Assembly (NCBI GenBank): GCA_902523635.1
Contig: CABZAE010000007.1
Coordinates: forward strand, 1-40,335
Direction of reading: 5' to 3'
Origin: an uncultured Bacteroidota bacterium
GTDB taxonomy: Bacteria; Bacteroidota; Bacteroidia; Flavobacteriales; Flavobacteriaceae
DNA: 40,335 nucleotides
Part shown: positions 15,950 through 35,400 of the stretch, piece by piece
Numbering within the stretch: position 1 is the first letter of the stretch
Layout of the letters: every line of letters begins with the position of its first letter
Made by a program: the position numbers and the translations under genes
Notes under the pieces: model-generated
What the model was told of the DNA's origin: nothing
Seen by the model: the letters and a program-made list of their open reading frames with translations, nothing else
Database searches by the model: none

Positions 15950-17386
15950 GTGAAAAATCTTTTACTAACTATACTCTGTTTTGTTGTAATTTATTCGTGC
16001 GGTAAATCTGACAAGGGTGAATTAGTTGGTTATGACGCCATGAAATTTTTTAATTCTCAACCCTCTGGTATGGTTTTAATTCCTAGTGGATCATTTTTAA
16101 TGGGTATGGCTGATGACGATTACGTTCAGCTTCAGAATGCACCTGTTAGCACAGTTTCCATCAAGGCATTTTATATGGATGAAACAGAAATTACCAATGG
16201 TGAGTACAAACAATTTGTTAATTGGGTCAGAGACTCTGTTGTAAGGGATGCGTTAGCCAAAAGAGCAATAGCTGAAATTGGCTCAACTCCAACTGAAGAA
16301 GATTTAGATTTGGATAACAGTATCAATAGCTATTTCCCCCTATATGAAGTTCCCGAGGATGTAAGCGATGAAGAAAAGGGTGGTTATCAATTATATAAAG
16401 AGCAAAATTTAGATTTGGAAATCAGTGAGTTTGATAAAAGTACTTACAATTTGAATTATGATGTGGATTTACTTTGGGATCGTGAGGATTATCCTGATTT
16501 GGCATACGCTGAGGTAATGGAGGGAGTATTTCCTGGTGAAGGTTTTTTCCTTCCTAAAGAGGAATCTTTCAATGGTGAAAGAACTTTTAACACAAAAAAA
16601 ATTGAATATACTTTTACCGTCTTTGATGCTGAAGCCGCTATAAAATCAGACAGTGACTCAAGAAAAAATTTTTTCAAGGAAAAAACAATTCCAATTTATC
16701 CTGACACGACCGCTTGGATAAAGGATTTTAATTACAGTTATAACGATCCAATGCACAACGATTATTTTTGGCATGATGCTTATAATGACTATCCTGTTGT
16801 AGGTGTTTCTTGGGAACAAGCAAAAGCTTTTGCTCACTGGAGAACGATGTACAAAAATCAGTATGTAAGGTCTAAAAAGAAGAACGGACAAGATGTACCA
16901 AATTTTAGATTACCAAACGAAGCTGAGTGGGAGTATGCTGCTCGTGGTGGTCTAGAGTCTGCGACATATCCGTGGGGTGGTCCTTACACCATTGATGGAG
17001 AGGGCTGTTTTTTAGCTAATTTTAAGCCCAACAGAGGAGATTATGCTTCCGATAACGCTTTGTATACTGTTGAAGCAGAATCTTATTGGCCAAATGATTA
17101 TGGTTTGTACAACATGGCTGGAAATGTTTCTGAGTGGACTGACTCCGCATATGATAAAGGGGCTTACACTTTTGATGCAGGCCTTAATCCAAATGTTGCC
17201 GATTCAACAAACCTGAGAAAAGTGATTAGAGGAGGATCTTGGAAAGATATTGCTTATTTTCTGCGTGTTAGTGCAAGAGACTACGAGTATAAGGACGAAA
17301 AAAGATCCTACATTGGATTTAGAACAGTCCAGGATTATTTAGGCGAAGACATTGGAATTAACGATAATCCAAATAAAGTATTTTAA
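15950..17386 (+). CDS. gldK: T9SS outer-membrane-ring lipoprotein GldK
   Basis: A 478-residue lipoprotein of the formylglycine-generating-enzyme/sulfatase-modifying fold. It starts with GTG at 15950. The signal peptide (about 1-16) ends at a lipobox-like YSC with Cys17. FGE-fold segments include GMVLIPSGSFLMGM, FYMDETEITNGEYKQFV, PVVGVSWEQAKAFAHW, RLPNEAEWEYAARGG, NMAGNVSEWT and RGGSWKD. GldK with GldN forms the periplasmic ring attached to the outer membrane in the type IX secretion system and in gliding. Its catalytic function is lost in the family and its role is structural. It is the first gene of gldKLMN. Confidence 0.96.
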   Translation: MKNLLLTILCFVVIYSCGKSDKGELVGYDAMKFFNSQPSGMVLIPSGSFLMGMADDDYVQLQNAPVSTVSIKAFYMDETEITNGEYKQFVNWVRDSVVRDALAKRAIAEIGSTPTEEDLDLDNSINSYFPLYEVPEDVSDEEKGGYQLYKEQNLDLEISEFDKSTYNLNYDVDLLWDREDYPDLAYAEVMEGVFPGEGFFLPKEESFNGERTFNTKKIEYTFTVFDAEAAIKSDSDSRKNFFKEKTIPIYPDTTAWIKDFNYSYNDPMHNDYFWHDAYNDYPVVGVSWEQAKAFAHWRTMYKNQYVRSKKKNGQDVPNFRLPNEAEWEYAARGGLESATYPWGGPYTIDGEGCFLANFKPNRGDYASDNALYTVEAESYWPNDYGLYNMAGNVSEWTDSAYDKGAYTFDAGLNPNVADSTNLRKVIRGGSWKDIAYFLRVSARDYEYKDEKRSYIGFRTVQDYLGEDIGINDNPNKVF

Positions 17387-17432
17387 AACAAAATAAAACA
17401 ATAAATCAAAATAGAAATAAAACTTAACAATC

Positions 17433-18035
17433 ATGAAAACAATTAAACACAAAAGATTTTTTATTCCAGACAATATATTAGAACTATTTTTTGGTCTTGG
17501 AGCCTCTGTCGTAATTATTGGGGCACTTTTAAAAATAACACACGCTGATTTTATCTTTCCTGGTAATGTGTGGTTAACAGCAGGTTTGGTAACCGAAGCG
17601 ATCATTTTTGGTATCTCTGGTCTTAAAGGCTATATGACCATTGACCCTGATGGCTTTGAAAGTGGGGATGATATTGAAACCCTTGAGGTTGAGACACATG
17701 AACTTGCAAAAGCTGTTGCAACTTCAATCAAGAAAATAACCAAGTTGAATGAAGATTTATCGATGGCTAGTAAATCAATTGGTTCACTTCACATTCCTCA
17801 TGATATGAATGCTCACATGAGTGATTACAATGCTAACATTCACGCCGGTGCAACCAAGCTCGATGAAATTAACAAGCTTTACGAGTCTTTGAGTAGCCAT
17901 TTGATTGAAGTCAATTCTTCAACCAGCGAAATGCATGTACCTGATGGATTAAATGAAGAATTAGCTAAGATGAAAAACAAGGTTACTCAATTGAATGCTA
18001 AATACAAAGGTGTACTGAACGCATTCAATAATTAA
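17433..18035 (+). CDS. gldL: T9SS/gliding motor inner-membrane protein GldL
   Basis: A 200-residue protein with two N-terminal membrane helices (about residues 14-34 and 45-65) and a long cytoplasmic helical tail. GldL and GldM form the proton-driven rotary motor of the T9SS. The K34-x2-H37 pair at the end of helix 1 and Glu55 in helix 2 (GLVTEAIIFGISGLKGY) are the kind of buried charged residues that form the proton path in the characterised homologue. Exact equivalence was not aligned. It lies 46 bases after gldK and 31 before gldM. Confidence 0.95.
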   Translation: MKTIKHKRFFIPDNILELFFGLGASVVIIGALLKITHADFIFPGNVWLTAGLVTEAIIFGISGLKGYMTIDPDGFESGDDIETLEVETHELAKAVATSIKKITKLNEDLSMASKSIGSLHIPHDMNAHMSDYNANIHAGATKLDEINKLYESLSSHLIEVNSSTSEMHVPDGLNEELAKMKNKVTQLNAKYKGVLNAFNN

Positions 18036-18066
18036 CAATTAAATTAACAAAAACAACTAATTTATT

Positions 18067-19791
18067 ATGGCTGGAAAATTAGATTCAAGACAGAAAATGA
18101 TAAACATGATGTACCTCGTGTTTATTGCAATGTTAGCTTTGAATATTGGAAAAGAAGTTCTAGCTACTTTGGGAATTTTAAATAATGATTTGGAGTCTTC
18201 AATTACTGAGCTTGAAGCGTCATCTGCCGCTAGTTATGCTCAAATTGAATCCAACGCAACCTCCGCTGATTACATGATTGCAGCGAGCCAAGTATTGGAT
18301 ATGAAAGAAGAAGCTGATAAATTTTTCAGCTATGTTCAACAGATTAAAGACACTCTTATCATTGGCGAAGACGGAGTAGCAAATAAATACTTGAAAGAAG
18401 TTAATGTTAAAGGAACCGATTCAGTAATTACTGTAACCGCTTACCAAGAGATGGATAAGTCGGAAGTTCTCGATAATATGTTTTTTGAAGGAGATATGCT
18501 AACACCAAAAGGACAAGAATTTTTAGATTTATACAAGGCTTTCCCCTCAAACATAACTAAAGTACTTGAGACAATAGTGTTTATGGAAGAGGAGGCTAAA
18601 ATTGCTAGGACTGCTCTTGACGGAACCAAGGGTGAAGATGGTGTACAAATTGAGTATGATTTTGAATCTTCAAAAAATGATTTAAAAAACAGATTCAATT
18701 ATACTCCTATGGTTGTCAATAGTGAAGGAACTTCTCAAGAATTTTTAAGTTATAACTTTTACGGTTTTCCAGTGGTCGCTTCTTTAGCAAAACTCACTAA
18801 AATACAGGCAGACATTAGATACATAGAAAACAAGGTTTTGACGGAAATTTTAAGCTCTATTCAAGGAAAAGGATTGAACTTTAGTACATTCCAAACCTTA
18901 CTTGAGACAACAAAACCTGTCTATTACACTACTGATGTAATTGATGCAGCTATTGTAATGGGAAAAAAAGATGAAGGTTTTAAGCCTGACGGAGTTGAAC
19001 TGTTCTTAAATGGTAATCCACTTTCTGAAGATGAATACTTTATAGAAAATGGTAAGGTTGTATTAAAGAAAAGGGTCGGATCACCAGGAACTTATGAATT
19101 AACAGGAACGCTATCCAAGAAAAATGCAGATACGCAAGAATTGGTTTCAATTCCTGTCAACCAAAAAGTGGTTGTAATCAGAGAACCTAATTCAGCTGTT
19201 GTGTCTGCTGATAACATGAGGGTTTTTTATAGAGGTCTTCGAAATCCTACATCAATATCTATTCCAGGGGTTGCTTCAGGAACGATCGTTCCATCAAGTG
19301 CCAATGCTAAGTTTACCAAAACTAGTAGTGGTTGGGCTGCCCAACCTACAAATGCTAAAGCCTCAGAAATGAAAATTAATGTTTCTGGTGTTTTAAATGG
19401 AGTTAGAAAGAATTTTGATGGAGGAACCTTTCGAATTTTACCACCACCCCCAGGGAAGGGTTCAATTACTGGTTTAGGACAAGTAGTTGCTAATGCTGAA
19501 CAAATCAATAAAGATTTACTACTAAATGGACGGGTCAAAGGTGCAAAGCCAAAGGATTTCTTCTATGACTACGAAATTATTGTCAATGGATTTGATATCA
19601 AAGTTGGTAACCTTCCTCAGAAAACTGTTTCAGGAAATAAAGTTAGTGGAAATGCTGCAGCATCATCCGATGTAAGAAGTGCCAGTAGGGGTACTGTGGT
19701 TGTAATCACCAACATAAAAGCGAGTTCAAAAGATGGTGATGTTGTAACGCCAAACTATGCTGTTGATCCATTTATTCTTATAACGCGTTAA
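18067..19791 (+). CDS. gldM: T9SS/gliding motor protein GldM
   Basis: A 574-residue protein with one N-terminal membrane helix (RQKMINMMYLVFIAMLALNI, about residues 8-27) and a long periplasmic rod of four domains. The rod ends in a C-terminal domain (from about AKPKDFFYDYEIIVNGFDIKV) that contacts GldK/GldN. GldM couples the inner-membrane GldL motor to the outer-membrane ring. It is somewhat longer than the roughly 510-520 residues I recall for the type protein. It is followed after 3 bases by gldN, so the pair is translationally coupled. Confidence 0.96.
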   Translation: MAGKLDSRQKMINMMYLVFIAMLALNIGKEVLATLGILNNDLESSITELEASSAASYAQIESNATSADYMIAASQVLDMKEEADKFFSYVQQIKDTLIIGEDGVANKYLKEVNVKGTDSVITVTAYQEMDKSEVLDNMFFEGDMLTPKGQEFLDLYKAFPSNITKVLETIVFMEEEAKIARTALDGTKGEDGVQIEYDFESSKNDLKNRFNYTPMVVNSEGTSQEFLSYNFYGFPVVASLAKLTKIQADIRYIENKVLTEILSSIQGKGLNFSTFQTLLETTKPVYYTTDVIDAAIVMGKKDEGFKPDGVELFLNGNPLSEDEYFIENGKVVLKKRVGSPGTYELTGTLSKKNADTQELVSIPVNQKVVVIREPNSAVVSADNMRVFYRGLRNPTSISIPGVASGTIVPSSANAKFTKTSSGWAAQPTNAKASEMKINVSGVLNGVRKNFDGGTFRILPPPPGKGSITGLGQVVANAEQINKDLLLNGRVKGAKPKDFFYDYEIIVNGFDIKVGNLPQKTVSGNKVSGNAAASSDVRSASRGTVVVITNIKASSKDGDVVTPNYAVDPFILITR

Positions 19792-19794
19792 TTT

Positions 19795-20652
19795 ATGATT
19801 AGAAAAGTATTTACATTTTTATTTTTGCTGGTAGGTTTAGTTTTAGGATATGGTCAATCCAATATTTTAAATGCTAATAACCCTAGTGAAATTGGTAAAA
19901 AGAACATAGATCAAATCCAATCTGATTTAGACTCTTATTTGGAATACGAGTTCATTGATGATAGAGATATTCTGTGGTCTAAAATTGTCTATGAAAAGAT
20001 AGATTTGAGCGAGCGTTTAAATTTCCCCCTTCTTTTTCCAATTGACGATAATCAATATGTGGATACCAGAAAATCACTATGGAGAGTTTTAAAAGAAAAC
20101 ATTATTAATAAAAATATTACTTTAATATATAATGCTAATAATGACAACTTTAAAGAGCTTTTGACTTATGATCAAGCTATGGCTTCACTAAAAATTAGTA
20201 AAAATTATGGTGATGAAAATGATCCGGACTTTCAAACCATTGAAATCACCTCAGCTGACATAACAGGGTACTATCTTAAAGGTATGTGGTATTTTGACAA
20301 AAGAAGAGGGGAGCTGATGTATAGACTATTGGCTATTATGCCCGTTGGAAAAAATATTGAGGATCCTTTTGATGAGGAAATGAATACAACTTTCTTTTGG
20401 GTTTGGTATCCAAGTATCAGAAAAATATTACATAAAGAGCTTGTATTTAATGACAGAAGTAATGCCAATCAAATTTCTTTTGACCAGTTATTGATTTCTA
20501 GAAGATTTTCTTCCTACATATACAAAGAGGATAATATTTACGGAGATCGACCGATCTCTGCCTATAAATTAAAAGGGCTTGAATCCATATTAGAATCTCA
20601 ACGAATCAAAAAGGAGATACTTGATTTCGAGCAAGATTTGTGGAATAGATAG
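19795..20652 (+). CDS. gldN: T9SS ring protein GldN
   Basis: A 285-residue secreted periplasmic protein with a signal peptide (about residues 1-20, cleavage likely before Gln at YGQS). Family segments include DDRDILWSKIVYEKIDLSERLNFPL, IYNANNDNF, YYLKGMWYFDKRRGELMYRLLAI and FWVWYPSIRKIL. GldN pairs with GldK to build the periplasmic ring. It is the last gene of the operon; a terminator follows at 20845-20869. Confidence 0.96.
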   Translation: MIRKVFTFLFLLVGLVLGYGQSNILNANNPSEIGKKNIDQIQSDLDSYLEYEFIDDRDILWSKIVYEKIDLSERLNFPLLFPIDDNQYVDTRKSLWRVLKENIINKNITLIYNANNDNFKELLTYDQAMASLKISKNYGDENDPDFQTIEITSADITGYYLKGMWYFDKRRGELMYRLLAIMPVGKNIEDPFDEEMNTTFFWVWYPSIRKILHKELVFNDRSNANQISFDQLLISRRFSSYIYKEDNIYGDRPISAYKLKGLESILESQRIKKEILDFEQDLWNR

Positions 20653-20844: not shown

Positions 20845-20869
20845 AAAAAGGCATTATTGCCTTTTTTTT
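20845..20869 (+). terminator. Rho-independent terminator after gldKLMN
   Basis: The stem AAAAAGGCA / TGCCTTTTT (9 bp) with a 4-base loop TTAT continues into a run of eight Ts. It lies about 190 bases after the gldN stop and before the giant gene, separating the two transcription units. Confidence 0.85.
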
Positions 20870-20936: not shown

Positions 20937-20963
20937 TTGCTGATCAATGCATGCCTATTATTG
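20937..20963 (+). promoter_or_regulatory. Candidate promoter of the giant surface-protein gene
   Basis: TTG (20937-20939) and TATTATTG (20956-20963; one mismatch to TAnnTTTG) are 16 bases apart. The predicted start would leave a short leader of about 13 bases to the ATG at 20983, and would exclude the longer in-frame ATG at 20947. Confidence 0.35.
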
Positions 20964-20982
20964 TTACATCAATATATGTGAT

Positions 20983-23900
20983 ATGAAAAATATATTCTCA
21001 TTATTTTTTTTAATTTTTTCGATTCTAATCTATTCTAATCCCAATCCCATCTCGGCCTCTAAAATTGTTGCTCCGGAAACCTCCTCTGCTACAATTACAA
21101 TTAATGAGGGTGCTACGGTTCAAATCAACTTGAGCGATTACGCCACTATTTCAAGTGGAAGTATCGATGAATATGAAATCATAACTCAACCTGTGCACAA
21201 AGCAACAAATAATGGTTTTGTTCACATTGGTGGAGGTACATACACCTACACACACAATGGTTCAGAAGCACCTAGCGACTCATTTACCTTTAAGGCAAAG
21301 AGTGGTAATGATGAGAGTAATATTTCGACTATAACAATTAGTATTACAAACATAAATGACGCACCAACTATAGATGATATTTCAGCAACTGTGGATGAGG
21401 GTTCCTCAGTTGAAATTTCACCTATCGCAAAGGATGCAGAAAATACTGAAGTTACTGTAACTGCGGGGAATGCTTCAAATGGTACGGTTACCAAAGATGC
21501 AACAACTGGCGTTTTCACATATACTCATGACGGATCGGATACTACTTCCGATTCTTTTGTTTTGACAGCTACTGAGCTGGCAAACACCCAAAACAACGGT
21601 TTGAATTTATTATCTGGAACCAAAACGGTTCAAATTACGATTACGGCTGTTAATGATGCACCTGTAGCATTGGCTTCTTTGTTAGATGTTAATGAAGGTG
21701 GATCAACAAATGGTACTTTTGCTTTTACTGATTCTGATTCTCAATCCGTTACAACCTCTGTTACTACACAACCATCAAATGGAACTGTGACAATTTCTGC
21801 AGATAATCCTGCTTCATACACATATACTCATGACGGAAGTGAAACTGTCACTGATGAATTCACTTTCAACGTAAATGATGGTGCACTTAGTTCCTCTGCT
21901 ACCATTACTGTAGCGGTCAACCCAACGAACGATGCTCCAATTGCAGTTGATGATGTATATTACATATCTGCGACAGATACAATCATAATCAACAATCCTG
22001 GAGTTGGTGTACTCGGAAACGACTCCGACCCAGAAAAAAATAATTTTACTGCGGAACTTGTTAGTAATCCTCAAAATGGTGAGTTGACATTGAATGCCGA
22101 TGGAACTTTTATGTTCATTCCACAGGTAAGTACAACTGGTGCTTTTGTTACAGATTCATTCACCTACGCTCCTGTTGATGAATCGCAATCTCAAGGAAAT
22201 ACAGCTACTGTTACATTAAACGCGGCCACACTTATACCGATTCCTGATTTTTATGACCTCAAGGAGGGAGAAAACTTGCAAGTAGATGATGCCACAGGTC
22301 TTCTTTCAAATGATGTTGACTTAAACAATTTTGCCATCGATAGTTTATGGGTAGTTACGCAACCCAAGTATGGAACGGTTACTGTCAATACAGACTTCAA
22401 GGGTGGTTTTTCTTATCAACACGATGGTTCTGAGAATCTTCAAGACGCTTTTGAGTATAAAATAAAAAATACTGATGGTGATAAATCTGAAAAGGCTTTG
22501 GTTAATCTATTTGCAGCTAATGTAAATGATGCACCCACGTCAACTGGAACTAAAGTAACTGTAAACGAAGGTTCTGAAAAGACATTTTCTTTACTTTACT
22601 CTGATAGTGACACAGCAGCTAATGCAATTCAGTTTACCATATCATCACAACCAACAAACGGAAATATAATTGATCTTGGAAATGGAAGTATTCGATATAT
22701 CCACAATGGAAGTGAAACCACTTCTGACTCATTCACATACTCTGTTAGTGACGGTGAGTTATCACTTTCTAGTCCTGCTACTGTCTCAATTACTGTAAAT
22801 CCAGTAAATGATTTACCAGTTGTTTATGACCAGCCCCTAACTGTATCAGAGGGTGGATCAATCTCGGTTTATCTAGAGGCGGACGATGTAGAAACTCCAG
22901 GACCCAAGTTAACTTTTAAATTAGAATCTGAGCCGAGCAATGGTAAGGCCTCGATTAGTAATGGACAACTAACTTACACACACAATGGAACGGAAACTAC
23001 ATCTGACACTTTTACTTACTCTGCAAACGATGGCACTGAAAATGGTGCACCTGCTAATGTAATTGTAACAATTAATCCAGTTAATACATCACCTAAAACA
23101 ACCGCAGTTACCATATCTCTAAACGAGGGAGCTGCAGCAACTTATGATTTATCTACAAATTCAAGTGACTCAGATACAAATGCTACGAATCTTAAATATA
23201 TTTTGGTTACCGCTCCAACCAATGGTTCGATCACTGATCCAAGTAATTCAAACGCTGCAGTTTCTGCAGGCGGTCAACTTTCGGGAACGCAAATAACATA
23301 CACGCACAATGGAGGAGAAACTACTAAGGATTCATTTACTTTCAAGGTGAACGATGGAAACTCTGATAGTAATACTTCAACCTCAACAATAGCAGTAACA
23401 GCTGTCAATGACATTCCTACTATAGACGCATCCGGAACTGTTGCTGTTGATGAGAAGGATCAAGTGGATATTACCATTTTAGGTTCTGACGTAGATTCTT
23501 CAACTCTTACTTACACAATTGTCGCTACTCCCTCAAATGGAGTTTTAAGAAATTCTGATGGTGCGGATCTATCTACTGGAAATACAATTTCAAACAATGT
23601 GATAACATATGTATCAACTGCTGCATTAAGTTCTAATGGAACAGATTCTTTTCAAATAAAGGCAAATGATGGTTCCGCAGATAGCGCCACTGCTACAATC
23701 AACATAACGATTACTGCAATTGATGAAACAAAGCCTCAGGTTGTTTTAACTGCAAGTGCAAATACAGTTTCTGAAGATGTAGGTACTGTTACATTAACCG
23801 CTAGTTTGGTTAGTAATACTTTTTACTCTGCTAAAAGAGATATGGATGCAGCTCCGGTCAGTCAACATGCGACTAACTCATTAGATTACGTTTTTCTTGG

Positions 23901-26859
23901 GGACTATGGAGGTCATAAATATTATCTTAAAAAAAGCAACGACTCCGAATATAATTACAGTGAAGCGAAAGCTGATGCCTTGGCTAAAGGAGGTTATTTG
24001 GTAGTTTATGAATCACAAGCTGAGCATGATTGGGTAATTGATCAATTGGCCTCTGGGGCAGCAAATTGGACCCAAAGATGGTTTTGGATTGGATTGAACT
24101 ACAAGCTGACTGGAGATGCTTGGAAATGGATCAATGGTGCTACCTATGATAACAGCAGTTATAAGGCTTGGACATCCAATAGTTATCCCAACGATTCTGA
24201 AAACAATAAAGCGGTTAGAGATTGGTCGGGTAATGGTTCTATTTATGGTTGGCAAAATGCTCAAGAAACAAATAACACGCATGGTTACATCATCGAATTT
24301 GATAATAGTGTAAATGCTTCTGCAAATACAACTGTAAACTTAGCCTACTCTGGTTCTGCTCAAAATACAAATGGCGATTCAACAGCTGATTCAGGTGACG
24401 ACTGGACAATCAATGCCAATTCAATCACCATTGCTAACGGATCATCCTCTGCTACAGCAACGATTACAGTTGTCAATGATACAACTCCTGAAGGCAATGA
24501 ACCCATTGTGGTGACTGCAACATCTGCAGACAACAGTGTGGCAAGAGTCAAAGGCAGTGAAAAGTCAGCTACGATAACAATACAAGATAATGAAGCTGCC
24601 ATTGCTACGATGTCAACTTCTGCCAATAAGGTTTCCTATACTGAAGGCACAGACTCATCAATACAAATTGTAGCCACCCTTGATTTTGCAAAATCATTTG
24701 ATTCTGCAATTGGTTTAACAATTTCTGGTACCGCAACTTCTGGGGTGGATTATTCTTCAAATGATGATGCATACTTAACCACCAAATCAATGAGTGGAAT
24801 GAACAGAGTAAATGGAGTTACTGTTGACTCTAACGGCAACTACTATGTAGCCGACAGAGATTCAAGAAAAATATGGAAGATGACCTCAGGGGGGACGATT
24901 ACTCAAATTGGTAGTGGTAACTGTTGTGATTTTTCAACTTCACCTTCGACAGCATCTTCAACTAAGTTCAGAGACCTGAAAGATATGGATATTGATAGCA
25001 ATAATAAAATTTATTTCATCGATGCATTTGCTGTTAGAATGTTTGATCCAAGTAACGAAAGATTTTATTTTATTGCGGGTAGTACAACTGATTATGTAGA
25101 CAATAATTCTACTGTCCCAAGTGGATCCAATGCTGCTGTAATTGCGACTGACGCTCGATTTTCATGGGGACTTAGAGCTTTGGCTGTAAAATCAGATGGT
25201 AAGGAAATTTATGTAGTGGATGATAACATGATCAAAAAAATATATACAACAGACGGTCAAACACTATTTAAGCATTCATCTGAGGAATCGTTTAATAAAA
25301 TCAAAGTAGTTAACGTTGCCAATGTAGATAATACCTGGGAGAATAACGAGGGAGATGCAGCATCTGCTGGATTTAACGGACCTGGATCCTTGGACTTTGA
25401 TTCCAACGGGGACCTTTACATTGCTGATCACGAATATTTGAAAAAACTTACTGTGGGAACTCAGTCAGGAAATCCACAAGTGACTAACATTATTCAAAAG
25501 GGTTGGAGTGACAAAAGAGGACTGGTAGTCGATGGTTCAAACAATGTATACTTCAGTGGAAGAGACAGAGACTACATATACAAGTATAATTCTTCAACTG
25601 GAAGTTTGCTTTCTGTGGTTGATAATGGAAGTGGCTCTGTAGATGGTGATCTGTCCGTAGCTCAAATTTCAAGACCTACCGATTTAGCACTGCACCCTTC
25701 TACAGGTAATCTAGTATTTATTGAGGAAAATGAGAAAAAAGTAAGGGAAGTTGACTTTTCTAAGAAAATAAGGATTTTTGCTGGGGAAACAACAGGATCA
25801 TACACACTCAACATTAAAGATGAGTCTTTTTATGAGGACAATGAGACAATAAAGTTTGTTGCAACTGGATCTAATGTTTCAATAAATTCTAAAAATCTTA
25901 TAACCGAATCCTCTACTGACTACTTAAGTTTTGATAGTACAACTGCAAAATCTGAAAATGCGACTGACGGAACCAATGGAATAATTTTGGTCAGTGATGA
26001 TTCAGCTCCGACTGTACAAATTGTTGCCAGTGAGTCAACAATTGCTGAAAATGGTGGTGTTTCCAAAGTTTCATTTACCATTGGAGGAGCATCTGAATCA
26101 GGATCCAAGATGGATTTAGACGACGGATTGAAAGGAGAATACCCATTCATTGGAAATTTCCAAGATCATAAATACTACATTGTGCAAGATTGGGTGTCGT
26201 GGGAAACGGCAAGACAAAATGCAATTGATCTAGGTGGATATCTTTTAACAATCAACAGTGCAGCAGAGAATAATTTTATTCAAAATAACATTGGAGATAA
26301 TTACAAATGGGACTCATATTGGATTGGGTTTTCTGACACTGCTGAGGAGGGAACCTTTGTTTGGGCCAATGGTAGTGATTCAACTTACACAAATTGGTAT
26401 GATGGAGAACCAAATAATGCAGGAGATGAAGATGTCGTTGAGTTCAATGCTTACAGCGGAAAGTGGAATGACTTAAATTCTAATGACGGGAGATTCTATA
26501 TTATTGAATTTAGTGGAACCATTTCAGCTAAAGATGTTGTAATTCCTTATGTTGTATCCAACTCTTCTGGTTTTTCAACAACAAGCGGAACGGATGCTAC
26601 ATTTACTGGAAGCGGAACTGTTACGATTCCAGCTGGACAAAGTAAAGTTGATTTGACAGTGACCGCCGTAAATGATTCGGAAAATGAGGATACAGAAACA
26701 ATCACATATACAATCACGGACAACATTACAGATGGTACTTATGATGAGGCATCCTCAACGGCAACGATAAGCATTATCGATGATGAGGCTCCCGCTGTTA
26801 CATGGGCATTCAACCCTGTTGATGACAATGGAGATGGAAACAATAACTGCAACCAGTGA
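20983..26859 (+). CDS. Giant T9SS-type surface adhesin, N-terminal part (frameshifted)
   Basis: The 1,958-residue N-terminal portion of a secreted multidomain protein. The start is ATG at 20983, which gives a clean signal peptide (MKNIFSLFFLIFSILIYSN then PNPISA); an in-frame ATG at 20947 adds 12 polar residues before it. Nine cadherin-like (tandem-95 type) repeats of about 100 residues follow, most with a YTHDGSETTSDSFTF-like core. Next are three Calx-beta domains: the first hosts a C-type-lectin domain (about 23884-24310), the second an NHL propeller (about 24770-25770), and the third another C-type-lectin domain (about 26130-26520) with EPN and WND motifs. The frame then ends prematurely at TGA 26857-26859, just inside a fourth Calx-beta domain whose remainder continues in the +1 frame. 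It has no sorting tail, so alone it could not be anchored through the T9SS. The intact protein would have about 5,212 residues. Confidence 0.9.
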   Translation: MKNIFSLFFLIFSILIYSNPNPISASKIVAPETSSATITINEGATVQINLSDYATISSGSIDEYEIITQPVHKATNNGFVHIGGGTYTYTHNGSEAPSDSFTFKAKSGNDESNISTITISITNINDAPTIDDISATVDEGSSVEISPIAKDAENTEVTVTAGNASNGTVTKDATTGVFTYTHDGSDTTSDSFVLTATELANTQNNGLNLLSGTKTVQITITAVNDAPVALASLLDVNEGGSTNGTFAFTDSDSQSVTTSVTTQPSNGTVTISADNPASYTYTHDGSETVTDEFTFNVNDGALSSSATITVAVNPTNDAPIAVDDVYYISATDTIIINNPGVGVLGNDSDPEKNNFTAELVSNPQNGELTLNADGTFMFIPQVSTTGAFVTDSFTYAPVDESQSQGNTATVTLNAATLIPIPDFYDLKEGENLQVDDATGLLSNDVDLNNFAIDSLWVVTQPKYGTVTVNTDFKGGFSYQHDGSENLQDAFEYKIKNTDGDKSEKALVNLFAANVNDAPTSTGTKVTVNEGSEKTFSLLYSDSDTAANAIQFTISSQPTNGNIIDLGNGSIRYIHNGSETTSDSFTYSVSDGELSLSSPATVSITVNPVNDLPVVYDQPLTVSEGGSISVYLEADDVETPGPKLTFKLESEPSNGKASISNGQLTYTHNGTETTSDTFTYSANDGTENGAPANVIVTINPVNTSPKTTAVTISLNEGAAATYDLSTNSSDSDTNATNLKYILVTAPTNGSITDPSNSNAAVSAGGQLSGTQITYTHNGGETTKDSFTFKVNDGNSDSNTSTSTIAVTAVNDIPTIDASGTVAVDEKDQVDITILGSDVDSSTLTYTIVATPSNGVLRNSDGADLSTGNTISNNVITYVSTAALSSNGTDSFQIKANDGSADSATATINITITAIDETKPQVVLTASANTVSEDVGTVTLTASLVSNTFYSAKRDMDAAPVSQHATNSLDYVFLGDYGGHKYYLKKSNDSEYNYSEAKADALAKGGYLVVYESQAEHDWVIDQLASGAANWTQRWFWIGLNYKLTGDAWKWINGATYDNSSYKAWTSNSYPNDSENNKAVRDWSGNGSIYGWQNAQETNNTHGYIIEFDNSVNASANTTVNLAYSGSAQNTNGDSTADSGDDWTINANSITIANGSSSATATITVVNDTTPEGNEPIVVTATSADNSVARVKGSEKSATITIQDNEAAIATMSTSANKVSYTEGTDSSIQIVATLDFAKSFDSAIGLTISGTATSGVDYSSNDDAYLTTKSMSGMNRVNGVTVDSNGNYYVADRDSRKIWKMTSGGTITQIGSGNCCDFSTSPSTASSTKFRDLKDMDIDSNNKIYFIDAFAVRMFDPSNERFYFIAGSTTDYVDNNSTVPSGSNAAVIATDARFSWGLRALAVKSDGKEIYVVDDNMIKKIYTTDGQTLFKHSSEESFNKIKVVNVANVDNTWENNEGDAASAGFNGPGSLDFDSNGDLYIADHEYLKKLTVGTQSGNPQVTNIIQKGWSDKRGLVVDGSNNVYFSGRDRDYIYKYNSSTGSLLSVVDNGSGSVDGDLSVAQISRPTDLALHPSTGNLVFIEENEKKVREVDFSKKIRIFAGETTGSYTLNIKDESFYEDNETIKFVATGSNVSINSKNLITESSTDYLSFDSTTAKSENATDGTNGIILVSDDSAPTVQIVASESTIAENGGVSKVSFTIGGASESGSKMDLDDGLKGEYPFIGNFQDHKYYIVQDWVSWETARQNAIDLGGYLLTINSAAENNFIQNNIGDNYKWDSYWIGFSDTAEEGTFVWANGSDSTYTNWYDGEPNNAGDEDVVEFNAYSGKWNDLNSNDGRFYIIEFSGTISAKDVVIPYVVSNSSGFSTTSGTDATFTGSGTVTIPAGQSKVDLTVTAVNDSENEDTETITYTITDNITDGTYDEASSTATISIIDDEAPAVTWAFNPVDDNGDGNNNCNQ
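21061..23720 (+). repeat. Nine tandem cadherin-like (tandem-95/VCBS-type) coding repeats
   Basis: Nine imperfect units of about 270-330 bases are visible from the recurring cores YTYTHNGSEAPSDSF, FTYTHDGSDTTSDSF, YTYTHDGSETVTDEF, FSYQHDGSENLQDAF, IRYIHNGSETTSDSF, LTYTHNGTETTSDTF and ITYTHNGGETTKDSF. Two more divergent units are the fourth and the ninth. Each unit ends in an (V/I)NPVND- or AVNDAP-like linker. They form a stalk that would hold the distal domains away from the cell, probably stiffened by calcium. Confidence 0.85.
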
Positions 26860-29800
26860 TAAAGCAAAAACAACAGCTAGTAAATTAAACTTAACCATTA
26901 CTGATAGCGGTGCAACTCAGAATCTAGACTATGTAGTCAGTGAGTTACAAAAAGTTAATACTTTGGCCGGTGGATCATCAGGGTTTAAAGATGGTGAGGG
27001 TAGTGATGCAAAGTTTGATAGACCTCACGGAATGGTTTCAGATGCGAGTGGAAACTTATATGTTGCTGACCATGAAAATAGAGTAATTAGAAAAATTACA
27101 CCTGCTGGTGTTGTTTCAACTTATGCTGGAAATGGAGAGTGGGGGCATGATGAACCATCTGGAAACAAGGCGGATGTACGTTTATCTCACCCAATGGGAA
27201 TTACATTTAACAATGCTGGAAATGAACTGTATTTTACAGAAACGGGAAGACAAAGAATTACCAAAATTGATGCTTCTGGAAATGTATCTGTAATCTCTGG
27301 AAACGGTCAACACGGAGATGGAGTTGGTAATAAGAATTCCTCTAGGTACGATGACCCCTCTAGTCTTGCTTTTGACAGCGCTGGAAACTTGTATGTTGCA
27401 GAATGGCAGAGAGTTAAGAAACTAGTTGTAGATGGATCAGGTAATTGGACATCAGAATATTTTATAGGTTCTGGATCATACGGTGAACAAGATGGTACCG
27501 GAGAGAACGCAAGTTTTAGAGGAATAAGAGGGATCGTTATTGACAAGTCTGGTAACGACGATGTGATGTATGTTGCTGATGAAAATTCAATAAGAAAAGT
27601 GACTTTGCCTGGTGGCGAAGTAACAACGTGGGCAAACACCAATAGAAACTGGGGTGATAACGATGGTACATTAGCATCTGCTCAAATGCAAAATATAAAG
27701 GCAATTTCTATTGACGCCTCAGCATCTTCGTTAACATTGTATATCGTGGATGAAAACAAACTAAAAAAGGTGACTAACGACGGGGTTGAGACTCTAGCAG
27801 GTGGTGATTATGGTTATGCCGACGGAGCCTTTGCTTCTGCCAAGTTTAGAGAACCTAAGGGGATAGCAATTAATTCCAATGGAATTCATATTGCGGACAC
27901 TTGGAATCATAAAATTAGAAAAATAGATCTTTTACCATCTATCACAATTCCTGCTGGCTCAACTACAGGATCATTAACTGTAACAGGACTAGATGATCAA
28001 TTATATGAAAGTAATGATGAGGCATTTACAATAGCTGTCCAGTCCGTTTCTAATGTTTCAAGTGCAGTGAATTCTTTCAGTGATATAGTCACTAAAGTAA
28101 TAAGTGACGAGTCTGCACCAACAATTAAATTGACTGCCAATGATGACGTGGTTGATGAGAAAGGTGGAACTGTTCAACTAGTTGTTAGCCTTGCTGATGC
28201 ATTTTCAAGTGCCAAGTCAGACATGAACGGATCTGATAAAGCTGATTACTACTATTTAGGTGAATACAATGGCTCTAAGTACTACGCATCTAAAAACCAA
28301 GATTCAGGGAGAAAATCATATTCTGATGCATTAAGCACTGCTAATACTTTAGGAGGCCAATTGGCTGTAATCACTTCTGCTGGTGAAAATGATTTTATTA
28401 CTTCAAAAATTTATGAAAAAGATCCTGAATACAACTACGACAACAGAGAATGGTTGAATCACTGGATAGGTCATAAGTACAATAACTCATCTGAAAAATG
28501 GGAGTGGACAAACGGTGCGGTTAGTGATTATACAAACTGGGGATGGGAGTACAATGAAGACTACATAGATAGATATTATACTCAAATTCGAGAAAGAGGA
28601 CTTTGGTTTAACCGCGAAAGCAATTGGCATTCTCAGTATGTAATTGAATTCTCTTCCGCTGTTTCAGATATCAATGCAAGTGCAGTCATTGAGTTTGGAG
28701 GAACCAGTGCAAATGATGGAACTGACTATACAACAAGTATCGGAGTACCAAATGCTGATCGAACAGTGACAATTCCAAAAGGTCAGTCTACAGCTACTAT
28801 AACTGTTACTGGCGTAGATGACAATCTTGATGAAGCGATTGAAACCATAACTGCTACGATGAAAACTCCATCTGAGGCCGTAATTGGTGCTGATTCAAAT
28901 TCGAATCCAATTAATAATACAGCTACCATATCGATCAGTGACGATGAATTACCAGCAGTCACGCTAGCTGTAGCTAGTAACACCATTGGTGAGGTAGCGG
29001 ATGCTCAAAATAGTATCAGCACAAGTACTACCATTACAGCAACGATTCAAAACGCAAAACTAAATCCAGTTGATATTTCACTTGATTTTACATCCTCAGG
29101 ATCTGGTATTGCATCATTTGGAGCTGACTTTGGATCCAATGATTTGAATAGAGTCACTACTTATGCAGGTGATGGAAATCACGGTTATTTGGATGGTGAT
29201 GCTGAAGAAGCTGAATTTTCAGATGATATGAAAAATGCAACCGTTGATGCTGCAGGAAACCTTTATATCGCTGATGGACATAACAACGTTATCAGAAAAG
29301 TTTCAACTGACGGTGAAGTGTCCACTTACGCTGGAACAGGCCAGCACTGGGGCAATGGTGATGTTGAATTGACTCCTGGCAATAAGCTAGAAAGAAGTTT
29401 AAGTAGACCTTACTCCGTAAAAATTAACGGATCTTACATGTATGTTGTTGAGAGAGATGCTCATCAGATTTCAAGAATAAACATGAGTACGGGTGTGCTT
29501 TCCAGATATGTTGGAAAACGACATGAAAATGGTGATGATAACGGAAATGAGACAGAGGCTAAATTTAATGGGCCTGTAGATATAGCTTTTGATTCAGACA
29601 ACCAAATGTATGTACTTGATCATGACAACACCAAGATTAGAAAAGTTGTAGATAATGGTACCAACCGAATTGTTACCGATTATGCAGGTAATGGAAACTG
29701 GGGTGATAGGGACGGTGATGCCTTAAGTGCTGAGCTCGGTGGACTACAAAGTATAGTAATTGATTCAAATGATAATATCTATGTTACTACATGGAATAGG

Positions 29801-32400
29801 GTAAGAAAAATTTCTGCTGATGGATCAACTGTAACCACGGTGGCTGGTGAGTGGCATGACTTTTCCGATGGATATGGAAGAAATGCCAGATTTAGAGATC
29901 CTCATGGTTTGGCTATTGATGAAAATGATAATATTTATATAGCTGACCAAGGTAACAACAGGATTAGAAAAATGTCTGAATTAGGAAATGTTTCTCAAGG
30001 ACCCAAGGTTGAGACAATTTCTGGAATTGATGAGTATGATTATCAGGACGGAACTGCTGACGAAGCTGCCTACAGAAGACCGATGTATGTAGCCTACCAT
30101 GCAGGATCACTGTATGTGGTGGATTCTGATGATAACAGAATTAGAAAAGTCCAATTGACACCAAAAATGACAATTCCAAGTGGACAAAACTCTGTAACAT
30201 ACAATTTAGAGGCAATTGATGATGTTGTATACGAAAATGACGAAACCATTAAATTTACTTCCAACACAATTGTTGGTGGAACTCTTGGAACAACGGATCC
30301 TGTCACTCTAACACTAAAAAGTGATGAATTGATCCCAAAAATTGAGCTGGATGCCGAAAATTTAGTTCTAAACGAAGCGGATGGAACACTTGAACTTGAA
30401 GTGTACCTTACCGATGCGGGTGGAGCAACCAGTTATTGGAAAGAAACTGAACTGCCTGCCGAAGCAGCAAATGATTATCAGTTTATGGGTGAGTTTGAAG
30501 GTCACAAGTACTATTTCTCTAGATACAGCTACAAGTGGAAAGATGCCAACCAGAATGCTCAGGATGTTGGTGGACAGTTACTTGTCATAGACAGTAAAGA
30601 AGAGAATGAGTTTATTAGCTCTATTATGATTCATAATGGTACATGGCTTGGAACCAAGAGAGAGGACGGAGATGCTTCTTGGTCCAATGTCTATGGAACA
30701 CTTGATTACACCAACTTTGAAAATAATAATGGTTATACGAACAACACTGGATACGCATTGACTTATGGTAATAAATGGTATGTTCATGGACCTGATGATT
30801 ACAGACATTTCATTTTGGAGTATGGTCCTGTAACATCCTCAGAACTACCATCTACTGTAAACATTGTGTTTGCTGATGACAGTACGGCAACCAAAGGTGA
30901 TACAGCCGATGGAACTGCTGATTACAAATCCTCAGCTGAAACGTTTACAATTCCAGCTGGAGCTCAAACTGCCACAGTTACACTAACTGGACTTCAAGAC
31001 ACAAATGAGGAACCTATTGAGGTTATAAAAGTTTCGATTGCTTCACCTTCAAATGTTGAGCTTGGAGCACAAACCGCTCTTGAAATTCAGGTCAAGGACG
31101 ATGAGAAGCCTGTTGTTTATTTTGAAGCTTCTTCTGATCAAATATCTGAGAATGGTGGAAAAGTAGTAATTCAAGCCAATCTTTCGAACGCTAAACTAGA
31201 TCCAACTACAATTACTTTGGGACTCGAAGGAACTTCAACACCACTTGAAGATTACAACATTTCATCGATCTTCAAATACTCTAGATTTACTGGAAAATTA
31301 GATGTGCCTGGAGCTAGAGAAGGTGTTGGATTGGAGTCACGTTTTACTTCTCCACTCATGCTTGCAAGAAACGTTGATGGCTCACTGTTAGTAACTGACA
31401 GAAATGCCCACGTAATTAACTCCATTGCTCTCGATGGGACTGTCAGTAAGCTTTTGGGAAGGACTTACAATTGTAGAGATGAAGTTGGAAGTGCAGATGA
31501 GGTAGGTATTTGTGATCCTAAACAAGTCGCAGTTGATAGCCAAGGTAATGTGTATTGGGGACGAGACAGACAAATTATGGGCTACAGTCCTAACACTGGA
31601 CAGGTATCCATAATTTTCGATGGTAATAATGGAGACATCGCAAATGTTGGGGGGATAACGGTACTAAAAGATGAAATCTATTATTCAGATAGGGATAAAC
31701 ATACAATTAGTAAATTACTTTGGAATGGTAGCTCTTATGAGTCTGTTGTTGTAGCAGGTCAATCTAACCAATATGCGAGTATGTGGAATTTCAACACCAA
31801 TCAGCCAAGAACTCTTCTCGAACCTAATTTTGATCAACCAACTTGGTTGACTGCAGATGAATCCAATAACAGAATAGTTGTTAATTATGGAGAACCTGAG
31901 TGGAACTGGGATCAATTGGGTAGAATCTCTATAGTGGATTTCAATGAAGGCACAGTCCGTGATATGCCTGGATTCCGAAGGTATGTTGAGGATGCAACTG
32001 GTCAGTGGCCAATGTTTGGAAAAGTAGATTTTGATTCGCAAGGGAACATGTATATTCCAGCAATGAATCTAAATGCAATTTACAAATTGAGCCCAAATCA
32101 AAATGGCATGTATTATTTGGGAGCTATTATCACAGATCAAAATATGGCATGGCCATCTTCAGTAGCAGTCAGTAATGGATCACTTTACGTTTCCAATTAC
32201 TATGGATTCACAGTAGATAAAGTTGGACTTGGAGCAACTATTGAAATCCCAGCTCAACAATACCTGGGTGAAATTACTTTAGATGCCTTCAAGGATCCAT
32301 GGTTTGAGGAAGATGAGACCATAGATATCAAAGTTGCCAACTTATCAAATGCGACTGTTGAGTCAAACGATATTGAAGTAGTCACAATACTTGAGTCAAC
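23740..32400 (+). repeat. Four tandem Calx-beta[CTLD]-Calx-beta[NHL] modules
   Basis: Eight Calx-beta domains lie in series. The odd ones are split by a C-type-lectin domain (about 23884-24310, 26130-26520, 28237-28660, 30470-30820). The even ones are split by an NHL propeller with ADxxNxxIRK-like repeats (about 24770-25770, 26950-27930, 29140-30160, 31265-32230). The insertion loop is constant for each guest. The lectin enters after the second strand, before the xxVxxxYxxS segment. The propeller enters between the GxDY segment and the IxIPAGxxxxxxT strand. The fourth Calx-beta is the one broken by the frameshift. Confidence 0.85.
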
Positions 32401-35400
32401 AAAACTAACATTGGTTCAAGACGCACCGTTTGAAGGAGTTGAGAATGGTAAAGTTAGTTGGGGTGATTATGACAAAGATGGAGATATGGACCTTGCCCTT
32501 ATGGGTCAATCGTCAACTGGGACCATAACTAATGTATATGTCAATAACAATGGAACATTTGAAAATACCAATCAAAACTTTACAAAGTTTATTGGTGGAG
32601 ATATTGAGTTTGTTGATGTCAATCAAGACGGTTATCTGGATGTAGCTGTTGCTGGTAATGCTGAAGGAAATGTAAGAAAAGCGGAATTGTACATTAATGA
32701 GGAAGGTAATTTCTTCTCAAAAATGGATGATTACAATGTTGAAGGTCTATCTCAATCTGATATGGAATGGGGTGACCTAGACAACGATGGAGATCCTGAC
32801 TTGATCATTGCTGGAATTGATAAAAATAATGAGTTCCAAACTTATTACTATACAAACCTTGGTGATTTTAACTTTTTAAACGAAGGATTATTCAATGAAG
32901 TTGGAATGATCAATGGAGAAATTGACATTGTTGATGCTGATCAAGATGGTGATAATGATTTATTTTCTACTGGAACTAAGGGTAGTACTCAAAACAGGCA
33001 GTTCCACAGTGGAAGAATAAAAAACACTTATTACCGTGAGGGATATGATGAGGATGTTGATTACAACAATTATGGATTCAATGTCAATTCTGGGTATATG
33101 AATGGAAATGCAGAGTATGCCGATTTAGATGGAGACGGTGAACTGGACTTCCTTGCAATTGGAGAGGATGAGAGTGGAAACATTGAGTTGCAAACCAATT
33201 TAGCTACGCTTAATATAAATATTTTTAAGCTAAAAAATGTAGACTTTGATTTTGCAGATTACAATAACGATGGTCAGAGTGACATGATAATCGCAGGGGA
33301 AGATCCAAATACTGGTGAAGCAAAAACTATGCTTTTTACAACATATCCTGCTTACTTTGGAAATCAGTATGGAATTATCAAATCTGATCTTCAAATTCAA
33401 GGACTTAGAGAAAGTAGTGTTGATTGGATTGATTATGATAAAGACGGCGATTTGGATCTGTTCTTAACTGGACTAGACGATAATGGTTTAGCAAAAGCTA
33501 TGCTTTACAAGGCTGATAACACCAACAATTTAAATACACCACCTAGCAAAATTACCAATCTAACAGCAACAGCTGATGAGTTTGGTACCGTTGAGTTCAA
33601 GTGGGATAAACCAACCGACAACTCATCTTCTGAGTTCAGGTACAGTATTAAAATTGGAACTGGTGAGGACAAAGATGAAGATTCGCCAACCTATGGTGAA
33701 TATTTCCTAGACAACATCATCTATTCAAATAGTAATGCAGAAACAGGTTCAACTTTAATTAATATACCTTCACTATCTACTCAAAACAGTAGAGAAGTTA
33801 TATTGAATCCTGGCACCTACTATGCTGCTGTTCAAGCAATTGATGGTGGTAACATGGGTGGACCATTCTCAGACACAATTAGTATCACACTAGATTATGA
33901 GTGGAAACTACTTAACCTGGGTGGAATAATTGATAGAAGGTTGATTCCAAGTGCCTCAACTCAGCTCGATTTCATGGATATGGATGGAGATGGAGATAAG
34001 GATTTGATAGCAACAAATCTCGGAATGGTGCCAAACAGAGAAAGAGGAGGTAATGATGTGCAACAACAAGCAATAAATGTTTATGCTTTTGACAATGAGG
34101 TATTTGTTCCTGTTTATTCTGCTCACTATGGAGAGTCTAATTTTGAATTTGGTGATTTCAACAATGATGGTCAGCAAGATGTTATTGTTGCGATTGAAGA
34201 AAATAGTGGAACCAGGCTCAGAATGTTCTTAAATACCAGAATTAGAGATGATGAGAGACAGGACGATCCTGATACACCACAAGACGAAAGTGTTTACAGA
34301 GAATTTTGGGATGAAGTTTATCCATTTGATAACAACAATGGTGAAGACTTTTTGCAAAGCGTTTACAACATTAAGTTTGCAATTAAAGATCTTGACAATG
34401 ATGGCCTTGTTGAAATAATTACAGCAGGTCAAAATTCGAAGCTAGCGAACGAAGCAACCACTGTAATGACGATGGTTTCAGTTGAGGATGTAGACGATCA
34501 ACCTGGAATTGGATTTAGTGATTTTAAAATGTCCGAAAAAAGAAGCGTTGTTGATGAAGGTATGCTGGATAATCTAAGCTTTGCATCCTACGATTTTGGT
34601 GATATTGATAATGATGGAGATTATGACTTCTTAATTTCTGGATACTCGTTTGATGGTTACAAAACTCTTCTTTTTGAAAATAAAAGGAAAAAAGACGAGA
34701 ATGGAGTTGCTGTTGTTCCTGTTGAGGTTTATTATGAAGAAGTTGATAATGATTTTGTTTCTGTGAAAGAGGGAACTGCTGATTTTGTAGACTTTGATGC
34801 TGATGGTAAATTGGATGTTTTGTTCAGCGGACAATCTTCAAACGGAGATTTAGTTAAAGCTTATTCAAATACTGATAACGGATATGTTGACCTTGATGTG
34901 GGATTACCTGCAGTTAGAAATGGTCGATTTGTGTTTGGAGACTTTGACAGTAATGGATTCAAAGATGTCCTTTACTCTGGAACAGTCAGTGGAGTTGGAA
35001 AAGTTACCAAGATCAACACTTGGATACCCGAAACAGGTAAAATGATAGATTCAGGATATGATCTTTCTGATTATGAACAAGCCAATATGGGAGTTGCAGA
35101 TTTTGATGGTGATTTGGATGCTGATGTTGTAATCACCGGAAAAAATAGCAATTGGAACAACAACGGAAGTTGGATGGATCAATATATTTCTGATATTCTC
35201 ATTAATGTTAGAGGTTTTGCAGGACCAGATGACAGTAGTGGAGGTATTGCTAATGACGGCTCAGGTGATGCACTTGAAAGTGGACCACTTAAAAAGTCCG
35301 TTGGTAGCAAAAAGGTTTATGGATTAAACGCCAGACCTCTTCCACCAACCAACGTTGAATTCCAAAGATCAAGGCTTCAGGCATTCAACCCTGTTGATGA

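Follow-up and report, generated by a model that had tools for sequence, protein, structure and literature searches.

Tandem Calx-beta domains interrupted by lectins and propellers

We analysed a whole contig (C7, CABZAE010000007.1; 40335 bases, hereafter the window) of an uncultured Flavobacteriaceae bacterium, taken from a fragmented assembly of 1.2 Mb in 43 contigs that is 62% complete. The window carries a giant gene in which Pfam matches and reading of the sequence place eight tandem Calx-beta domains (hosts) between positions 23731 and 32419, each interrupted by a second domain (guest). This array is spread over two overlapping open reading frames (ORFs), 20947-26859 (1970 amino acids, aa) and 26780-36622 (3280 aa). 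Odd hosts 1, 3, 5 and 7 carry C-type lectin domains (CTLDs) of 127-151 residues, entering after the second strand (B-C loop) in every case, and even hosts 2, 4, 6 and 8 carry NHL propellers of 325-344 residues, always entering the C-D loop, which follows a GxDY-like segment and precedes the I-PAG strand. The original prediction, made from the sequence of the window alone, had placed eight interrupted hosts at 23740-32400, with lectins in the odd and propellers in the even ones and a fixed loop for each kind of guest; all of this was borne out, with host 4 broken by a frame change and seven of the eight hosts intact. The C-type lectin fold (PF00059, Lectin_C) was matched at E-values of 1.5e-21 and 2.7e-14 in the two ORFs and the NHL repeat (PF01436) at 6.5e-6 and 4.7e-33; a chance origin of the pattern is rejected by these E-values and by conservation in relatives. 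The array reads as follows.

23731-23874, plus strand: host 1 Calx-beta, N-half
23875-24327, plus strand: guest 1, CTLD without EPN/WND
24328-24597, plus strand: host 1 Calx-beta, C-half (sub-threshold Pfam Calx-beta match at profile 46-118)
24598-24765, plus strand: host 2 Calx-beta, N-half
24766-25758, plus strand: guest 2, NHL propeller
25759-26007, plus strand: host 2 Calx-beta, C-half
26008-26136, plus strand: host 3 Calx-beta, N-half (AlphaFold2, AF2, strands 2-7, 11-13, 18-25)
26137-26532, plus strand: guest 3, CTLD with EPN and WND
26533-26790, plus strand: host 3 Calx-beta, C-half
26791-26941, plus strand: host 4 Calx-beta, N-half, disrupted in the window by a frame change
26942-27937, plus strand: guest 4, NHL propeller
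27938-28117, plus strand: host 4 Calx-beta, C-half
28118-28240, plus strand: host 5 Calx-beta, N-half (AF2 strands 2-7, 11-13, 18-26)
28241-28681, plus strand: guest 5, CTLD without EPN/WND
28682-28951, plus strand: host 5 Calx-beta, C-half
28952-29125, plus strand: host 6 Calx-beta, N-half
29126-30157, plus strand: guest 6, NHL propeller
30158-30334, plus strand: host 6 Calx-beta, C-half
30335-30469, plus strand: host 7 Calx-beta, N-half
30470-30850, plus strand: guest 7, CTLD without EPN/WND
30851-31108, plus strand: host 7 Calx-beta, C-half
31109-31258, plus strand: host 8 Calx-beta, N-half
31259-32233, plus strand: guest 8, NHL-like propeller (most divergent)
32234-32419, plus strand: host 8 Calx-beta, C-half

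The two halves of a host align as one Calx-beta domain

In the native ORFs the Pfam Calx-beta profile (PF03160) scored 24.4 and 26.3 bits (cut-off 27). We scanned seven hosts with the guest deleted, leaving out host 4, and ran the intact version for hosts 5, 6 and 8. Deletion raised the LapA match of host 8 from 22.2 to 27.0 bits, which attains the cut-off of 27, and extended it from profile positions 40-88 to 10-88. The LapA match of host 6 rose from 17.3 to 21.4 bits (43-83 to 12-83) and the Calx-beta match of host 5 from 17.3 to 19.0 bits (48-118 to 16-118). Joined host 2 scored 20.2 bits with LapA (6-75) and 18.1 with Calx-beta (41-92), and the Pfam matches of joined hosts 3 (16.4 bits) and 7 (21.5 bits) began at profile position 35. 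With Calx-beta itself every single host scanned remained below the cut-off, the best guest-deleted one reaching 25.5 against 27 bits.

For comparison we used four uninterrupted Calx-beta domains from a protein of a relative (L045, described below). In profile-profile alignments with hhalign, the 26 joined odd hosts and the 24 joined even hosts both scored 71.3 against these domains, covering template positions 1-95 and 1-98 of 111, respectively. The N- and C-halves alone gave 18.6 and 60.6 for the odd hosts and 36.1 and 42.0 for the even hosts, and swapping the order of the halves gave 61.4 (odd) and 41.5 (even). When single sequences were scored with a hidden Markov model (HMM) of the four uninterrupted domains, joined even hosts 2, 6 and 8 reached 23.0, 21.9 and 19.4 bits, compared with 13.2, 19.9 and 12.2 bits for their best halves. 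Since joining brought the odd hosts no gain in this test, they were judged by the profile-profile comparison.

A profile search of the PDB with seven joined hosts of the window and two uninterrupted domains matched the exchanger domain CBD1 of CALX over positions 11-109 of 110, both in the single-domain chain 3e9t (E 4.9e-4) and in the two-domain chain 3rb5 (whole-chain E 3.7e-5); NCX1 chains were matched from profile position 36 to 40 onward, and the top match was a protein-asparaginase chain (E 1.3e-9, positions 4-109). The uninterrupted L045 domains gave no Pfam Calx-beta match, either singly (three of the four scanned) or in a scan of the entire ORF (E up to 0.1); we call them Calx-beta because they resemble the hosts and because the profile that combines them with hosts matches CBD1. 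A guest-deleted host profile, one of the checks proposed with the original prediction, finds uninterrupted Calx-beta domains and CALX/NCX CBD1 over most of the fold. Another of those checks was structure prediction: AF2 models of host 3 (26 alignment rows, predicted local distance difference test, pLDDT, 89.8) and of hosts 5-6 (22 rows, pLDDT 82.7) both list host strands on either side of each guest, as expected for one domain.

Several results weigh against a single split domain. The best native Calx-beta stretches are C-halves only (profile 46-118 and 48-118), and joined host 1, at 25.5 bits, likewise matches with its C-half (46-118). The N-halves of the odd hosts are weak by themselves in the hhalign comparison, and joining slightly lowered the HMM score in all four odd hosts tested singly (11.2, 5.3, 15.5 and 25.7 bits for hosts 1, 3, 5 and 7, against 12.9, 9.9, 15.7 and 28.1 for the C-halves). 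The CBD1 match is modest, the best stretch of 3rb5 alone having an E-value of 0.0075. The AF2 evidence consists of strand lists, with the spatial pairing of the halves not seen, and the predicted template modelling scores (pTM) of the models are only 0.72 (host 3) and 0.69 (hosts 5-6). Judged by the joined-profile comparisons, each guest separates the N- and C-half of a single Calx-beta domain.

One lectin position keeps a sugar-binding signature

The hallmarks of calcium-dependent sugar binding in C-type lectins are the motifs EPN (or QPD) and WND. Both EPN and WND were found in all six aligned orthologues of the host-3 guest and in none of the 20 lectins that were aligned from the three remaining positions. 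In a structure search of its AF2 model, the host-3 guest is a canonical CTLD, with Endo180 CRD2 as best PDB match (9qy1, root-mean-square deviation 1.6 Å), followed by CL-K1, CD23, a scavenger receptor lectin, surfactant proteins and mannose-binding protein. For the propellers, the evidence from AF2 and Foldseek covers host 6 alone: through this propeller the model of hosts 5-6 matched the teneurin-like 9ifo (E 3.1e-25), a quenching protein, NHLRC2, TRIM2 and Pizza6 designs. Guest 8 gave a single NHL stretch (E 2.9e-8). The notion of eight binding heads is thus partly supported: the host-3 lectin has the EPN/WND signature, the other three lectin positions are without it, and the propellers have no known ligand.

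Four lectin-propeller units are older than the species compared

At least one full-length even-host match was found in each of nine of the 22 genomes of the genus, the window's own included, many of these assemblies being incomplete. All four lectin-propeller pairs lie in one ORF in three of them (G017, G016 and G014), the array ORF of G016 starting just before the array, 2.7 kb past gldN. G015 has four pairs, the last truncated at a contig end; the loci of G007, G005 and G004 are cut, and in G011 (L044) the order is kept, with the orthologous gene split into several ORFs. The split in G011 and the late start in G016 (L038) may reflect decay, sequencing indels or a shorter gene. gldN lies upstream in six of the six relative loci tested, with the next long ORF within about 500 bases in five.

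Trees were built from 26 odd and 24 even hosts, omitting G011, cut copies, the broken host 4 of the window and the second even host of G007. With the guests included, each of the four unit positions formed its own clade across species (support 98/98 or better). Without them, all even hosts grouped together (98/89), as did all odd hosts, not strongly (83/81). The host-only tree joined units 3 and 4 in both odd (97/90) and even hosts (87/77), and units 1 and 2 in even hosts (89/67); in odd hosts it placed unit 1 with units 3 and 4 (85/72). With guests, the odd hosts gave (u1,u2)(u3,u4) at 82/80, and the even hosts left u4 outside and joined (u2,u3) at 70/43. The copies in the window share 27-38% identity among odd and 27-30% among even hosts. 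Judged from these trees, the four unit positions predate the species compared, and a history of one odd-even block doubling to two and again to four, all before the species diverged, would fit; such doubling is favoured, with the order of the duplications only weakly resolved. The separate odd and even host groups and the position-specific clades support the proposal, made with the original prediction, that a unit of two hosts and two guests was duplicated as a block.

In a lectin-only tree the lectins of host 3 grouped with the lectin of an SprB protein (95/89) and stood away from those of units 1, 3 and 4 (97/94). A single origin of the Calx-beta-borne lectins was neither shown nor rejected in the approximately unbiased (AU) test (p-AU 0.355). 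The same holds for odd and empty hosts as one group (p-AU 0.426), the best tree joining odd with even hosts (61/68).

Empty hosts occur in two further proteins, both of them paralogues. L045, a second protein of G005, has five Calx-beta domains with an NHL guest alternating with four uninterrupted ones, and shares FG-GAP, dockerin and type IX secretion system (T9SS) tail matches with the window protein in Pfam. L159, from another genus (G673), has three NHL-bearing Calx-beta domains alternating with two empty ones and, by eye, an FG-GAP-like C-terminal part. Both resemble the window protein in the loop that receives the propeller and in the C-terminal part, and differ from it in that alternate hosts are empty and no CTLD was matched. 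Alternation therefore exists with alternate hosts empty, and the lectins were either gained in the line of the window or lost in that of L045 and L159.

Full odd hosts were found within the genus; other lectins of the family lie in HYR-type domains

Our scans of the phylum and the family score few candidates per genome and may miss copies, and the phylum figures hold among the matches listed. Some odd-host match occurred in 118 of 395 phylum genomes. A full-length one (1-269) appeared among the matches listed in the window's genome only; others consisted of the CTLD flanked on each side by no more than a piece of a host half (30-224), or of the Calx-beta C-half. Some even-host match occurred in 202 of the 395; among the matches listed outside the window's genome, these were confined to 34-384, which is little more than the propeller. 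In the family (397 genomes), four genomes, all of this genus, had full odd hosts (E up to 1e-20); full even hosts came from four genomes of the genus and from G673 (3-434, E up to 1e-30). The search for the same architecture elsewhere in Bacteroidota, which had been suggested at the outset, thus succeeded within the genus, and a full odd host beyond it was not found in these scans.

CTLD matches (E up to 1e-20) were present in 14 family genomes outside the genus, and we examined ten of these (11 loci, 15 CTLDs; L145-L154 and L156). All 15 lie, by eye, inside an HYR-type domain (PF02494), 13 of them after a segment ending in N-C, D-C or S-C and two (L152 and L154) in an earlier loop. In the three HYR hosts scanned, the match was partial with the CTLD in place (best stretch starting at profile position 42, 45 or 47) and complete once the CTLD was deleted (2-81 of 81; 59.5, 54.0 and 34.5 bits, against a cut-off of 21.7). 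These proteins share with the window the nesting of a CTLD in a beta-sandwich loop of a large protein; they differ in the host and in the use of two different loops, and their ORFs gave no NHL profile match.

A further CTLD of the window's own genome lies on contig C19 at about residues 772-910 of a 2622-aa ORF (L155), among SprB repeats of a T9SS (CHU_C) protein.

The remainder of the giant gene and its neighbours

Outside the array, the giant gene and its upstream neighbourhood contain the following features.

15950-20652, plus strand: gldK-like (FGE-sulfatase), gldL, gldM and gldN, upstream of the giant gene
20947-23730, plus strand: N-terminal part with a hydrophobic leader (by eye) and about nine Big_9/cadherin-like repeats (Pfam Big_9, E 8.4e-72, nine stretches)
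32465-35300 (approximate, extent by eye), plus strand: FG-GAP-like repeats 3' of the array (Pfam FG-GAP_3, E 8.2e-24, six stretches, best at residues 1896-1957)
35780-35944, plus strand: dockerin-type repeat (Pfam 21.2 bits, below the cut-off of 22.9)
36374-36568, plus strand: T9SS C-terminal sorting domain, Por_Secre_tail (Pfam E 4.8e-11)

The leader and the Por_Secre_tail expected of a T9SS substrate are both present; in the window they fall in different ORFs. No RTX repeat family is among the Pfam matches of the giant protein, which carries the T9SS tail instead of a type I signal. Because of this sorting tail and the domain composition, the protein would be exported by the T9SS and attached to the cell surface.

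A terminator-like stem was found on the minus strand at 20845-20866, between gldN and the giant gene (one found, 0.1 expected in shuffled sequences); it says little on the transcription of the plus-strand genes. Promoter-like sites 5' of the giant gene showed no excess (three found, 3.9 expected).

The next giant protein, encoded from 36628 to the contig end, has a domain at 38242-38985 that looks interrupted by a cupredoxin-like guest (38350-38676). When this guest is omitted, the domain can be aligned with two sibling repeats in this protein that lack an interruption; only one sibling matched Cohesin below the cut-off (22.5 against 24.1), and the joined domain itself gave no Cohesin match.

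A proposed spine with paired heads

Calx-beta domains of exchangers bind calcium through acidic loop residues. In NCX1 CBD1 the ion is coordinated by E385, D446, D447, E451 and D498-D500, and in the isolated domain also by D421 (PMC3386913, in the parts available). The hosts carry acidic residues in the corresponding AB, CD and EF loops, and these are among their best-conserved positions: E14 (26/26), D203 (23/26), D235 (25/26), E239 (26/26) and D275 (26/26) in odd hosts, and E14 (23/24), D59 (24/24), D424 (21/24), E428 (24/24) and E431 (24/24) in even hosts. Their assignment to the CBD1 calcium-ligand region is a reading of the CALX alignment.

We propose, with a probability of roughly 0.6, that the locus codes for a giant fibrillar adhesin, brought to the cell surface by the T9SS, whose middle is a spine of tandem Calx-beta domains, each of them split by a guest. 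By homology, the conserved acidic residues would bind calcium where neighbouring hosts meet, making the spine stiffer. In the exchanger pair CBD12, CBD1 turns its calcium loops (CD and EF) towards the linker and towards the BC and FG loops of CBD2, which restricts the joint (PMC3386913, in the parts available). If the hosts pack as in CBD12, the B-C lectins and C-D propellers would sit at opposite poles of their hosts, and because the CD and EF loops would face the BC and FG loops of the following domain, propeller k and lectin k+1 would emerge at the same joint, leaving the odd-to-even joint bare. Along the spine, joints with a pair of heads would thus alternate with joints that carry none. 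The host-3 lectin probably binds sugar through calcium by means of EPN/WND, the remaining heads may bind other ligands, and the fibre could attach the cell to polysaccharide-rich surfaces or particles. Some observations temper this picture: the sugar-site residues are missing at three of the four lectin positions, non-acidic host columns are invariant too (A30, K36 and I408 in even hosts), and the acidic C-terminal end is lacking in many even hosts.

A further-reaching speculation is that surface proteins of Flavobacteriaceae are in general assembled by nesting in loops, CTLD, NHL and cupredoxin-like modules being portable guests that Calx-beta, HYR and cohesin-like hosts take up in particular loops, and that each even-to-odd joint of the present array forms a calcium-assembled, two-headed composite site. 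We regard this combined proposal as doubtful.

Alternative readings of the locus

There is a considerable chance, somewhat short of even, that the gene is decaying or mis-assembled in this strain and that the window encodes no working protein. Positions 26805-26841, in the first strand region of host 4, are an exact 37-nt copy of 35380-35416, 8.6 kb downstream in the same gene region; the reading frame changes at this copy, so that host 4 is not readable in one frame in the window, and the assembly is fragmented and incomplete. However, seven relatives have ordinary Calx-beta sequence at the site and read the frame through, and apart from this break the two ORFs stay open for about 5,200 codons.

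As an alternative to a static attachment fibre, the protein could be an SprB-type adhesin that is moved by GldKLMN in gliding motility. The gldKLMN genes upstream in the window, and gldN in the six relatives tested, would suit this role. GldKLMN, however, serves T9SS export in general, Pfam finds no SprB repeats in the giant protein, and the SprB-repeat protein of the genome (L155) is encoded on another contig, so we consider a gliding function unlikely.

Rather improbable is a cell-cell recognition protein in which teneurin-like propellers are the main heads and the lectins mostly structural. The hosts 5-6 model does have 9ifo as its best PDB match, with teneurins lower in the list, and three of the four lectin positions are devoid of EPN/WND; yet the 9ifo match is generic for NHL propellers, as NHLRC2, TRIM2 and Pizza6 match too, and one lectin retains the sugar signature throughout its aligned orthologues.

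A serial arrangement, with lectins and propellers between half-size Ig-like domains and outside any single Calx-beta fold, would agree with the C-half-only native matches, the weak odd N-halves and the lack of gain on joining single odd hosts, but was rejected on the joined-profile tests (in-order hhalign alignment, a lower score on swapping, and the CBD1 match) and is very remote, the guest-free host also occurring naturally in the same protein family (L045 and L159).

Known split-domain adhesins and the present array

To our knowledge, the exchanger domains CBD1 and CBD12 contain no inserted domains. They share with the hosts of the adhesin proposed here the Calx-beta fold, the acidic calcium-site positions and the tandem arrangement (3rb5, 3e9t and 2dpk; PMC3386913, in the parts available), and differ in belonging to a cytosolic regulator. 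The outer-membrane adhesin BapP of Pseudoalteromonas tunicata is Ca2+-dependent and contains Calx-beta repeats, BIg_9 repeats and a beta-propeller; its propeller is N-terminal, however, and the available parts of its description mention neither nesting nor a CTLD (PMC12153261).

A precedent that has been studied experimentally is that of RTX adhesins, in which 'split' Ig-like domains, recognised from predicted structure, project ligand-binding domains (PMC12077191, PMC10865825; available parts for these and the following statements). AhLap, FrhA and MpIBP resemble the window protein in that an Ig-like beta-sandwich of a giant fibrillar adhesin is interrupted by a ligand-binding domain pointing sideways. 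Their guests are carbohydrate-binding modules or other sugar-binding domains, PA14, peptide-binding, RTX or vWFA domains. In contrast to the window, they have single split domains in a C-terminal ligand-binding region and use type I secretion (PMC12077191, PMC10865825), whereas the window has eight consecutive Calx-beta hosts, CTLD and NHL guests alternating in two fixed loops, and a T9SS tail. The words 'Calx' and 'propeller' are absent from the main text of both papers. The window protein has the split Ig-like arrangement of these adhesins by sequence and profile comparison, and ligand presentation by it is a prediction. No description of a Calx-beta/CTLD/NHL alternation was found in the open-access literature, so that what appears to be new, not being found in print, is the combination of tandem Calx-beta hosts, alternating guests in two fixed loops and a T9SS setting. 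The original prediction knew of no description of this regular nesting, which stands for the array; the presentation of heads through split domains was already known (PMC12077191, PMC10865825).

The array extends split-domain presentation of heads from isolated, type-I-secreted RTX cases to a regular, eight-fold tandem array with a T9SS tail in marine Bacteroidota. Such nesting is probably under-annotated, because Pfam shows hosts of this kind only as sub-threshold halves. The two-pole geometry makes a sharp structural prediction, and the natural occurrence of empty and filled hosts, in L045 and L159 and at the locus of the window, makes the evolution of domain insertion traceable.

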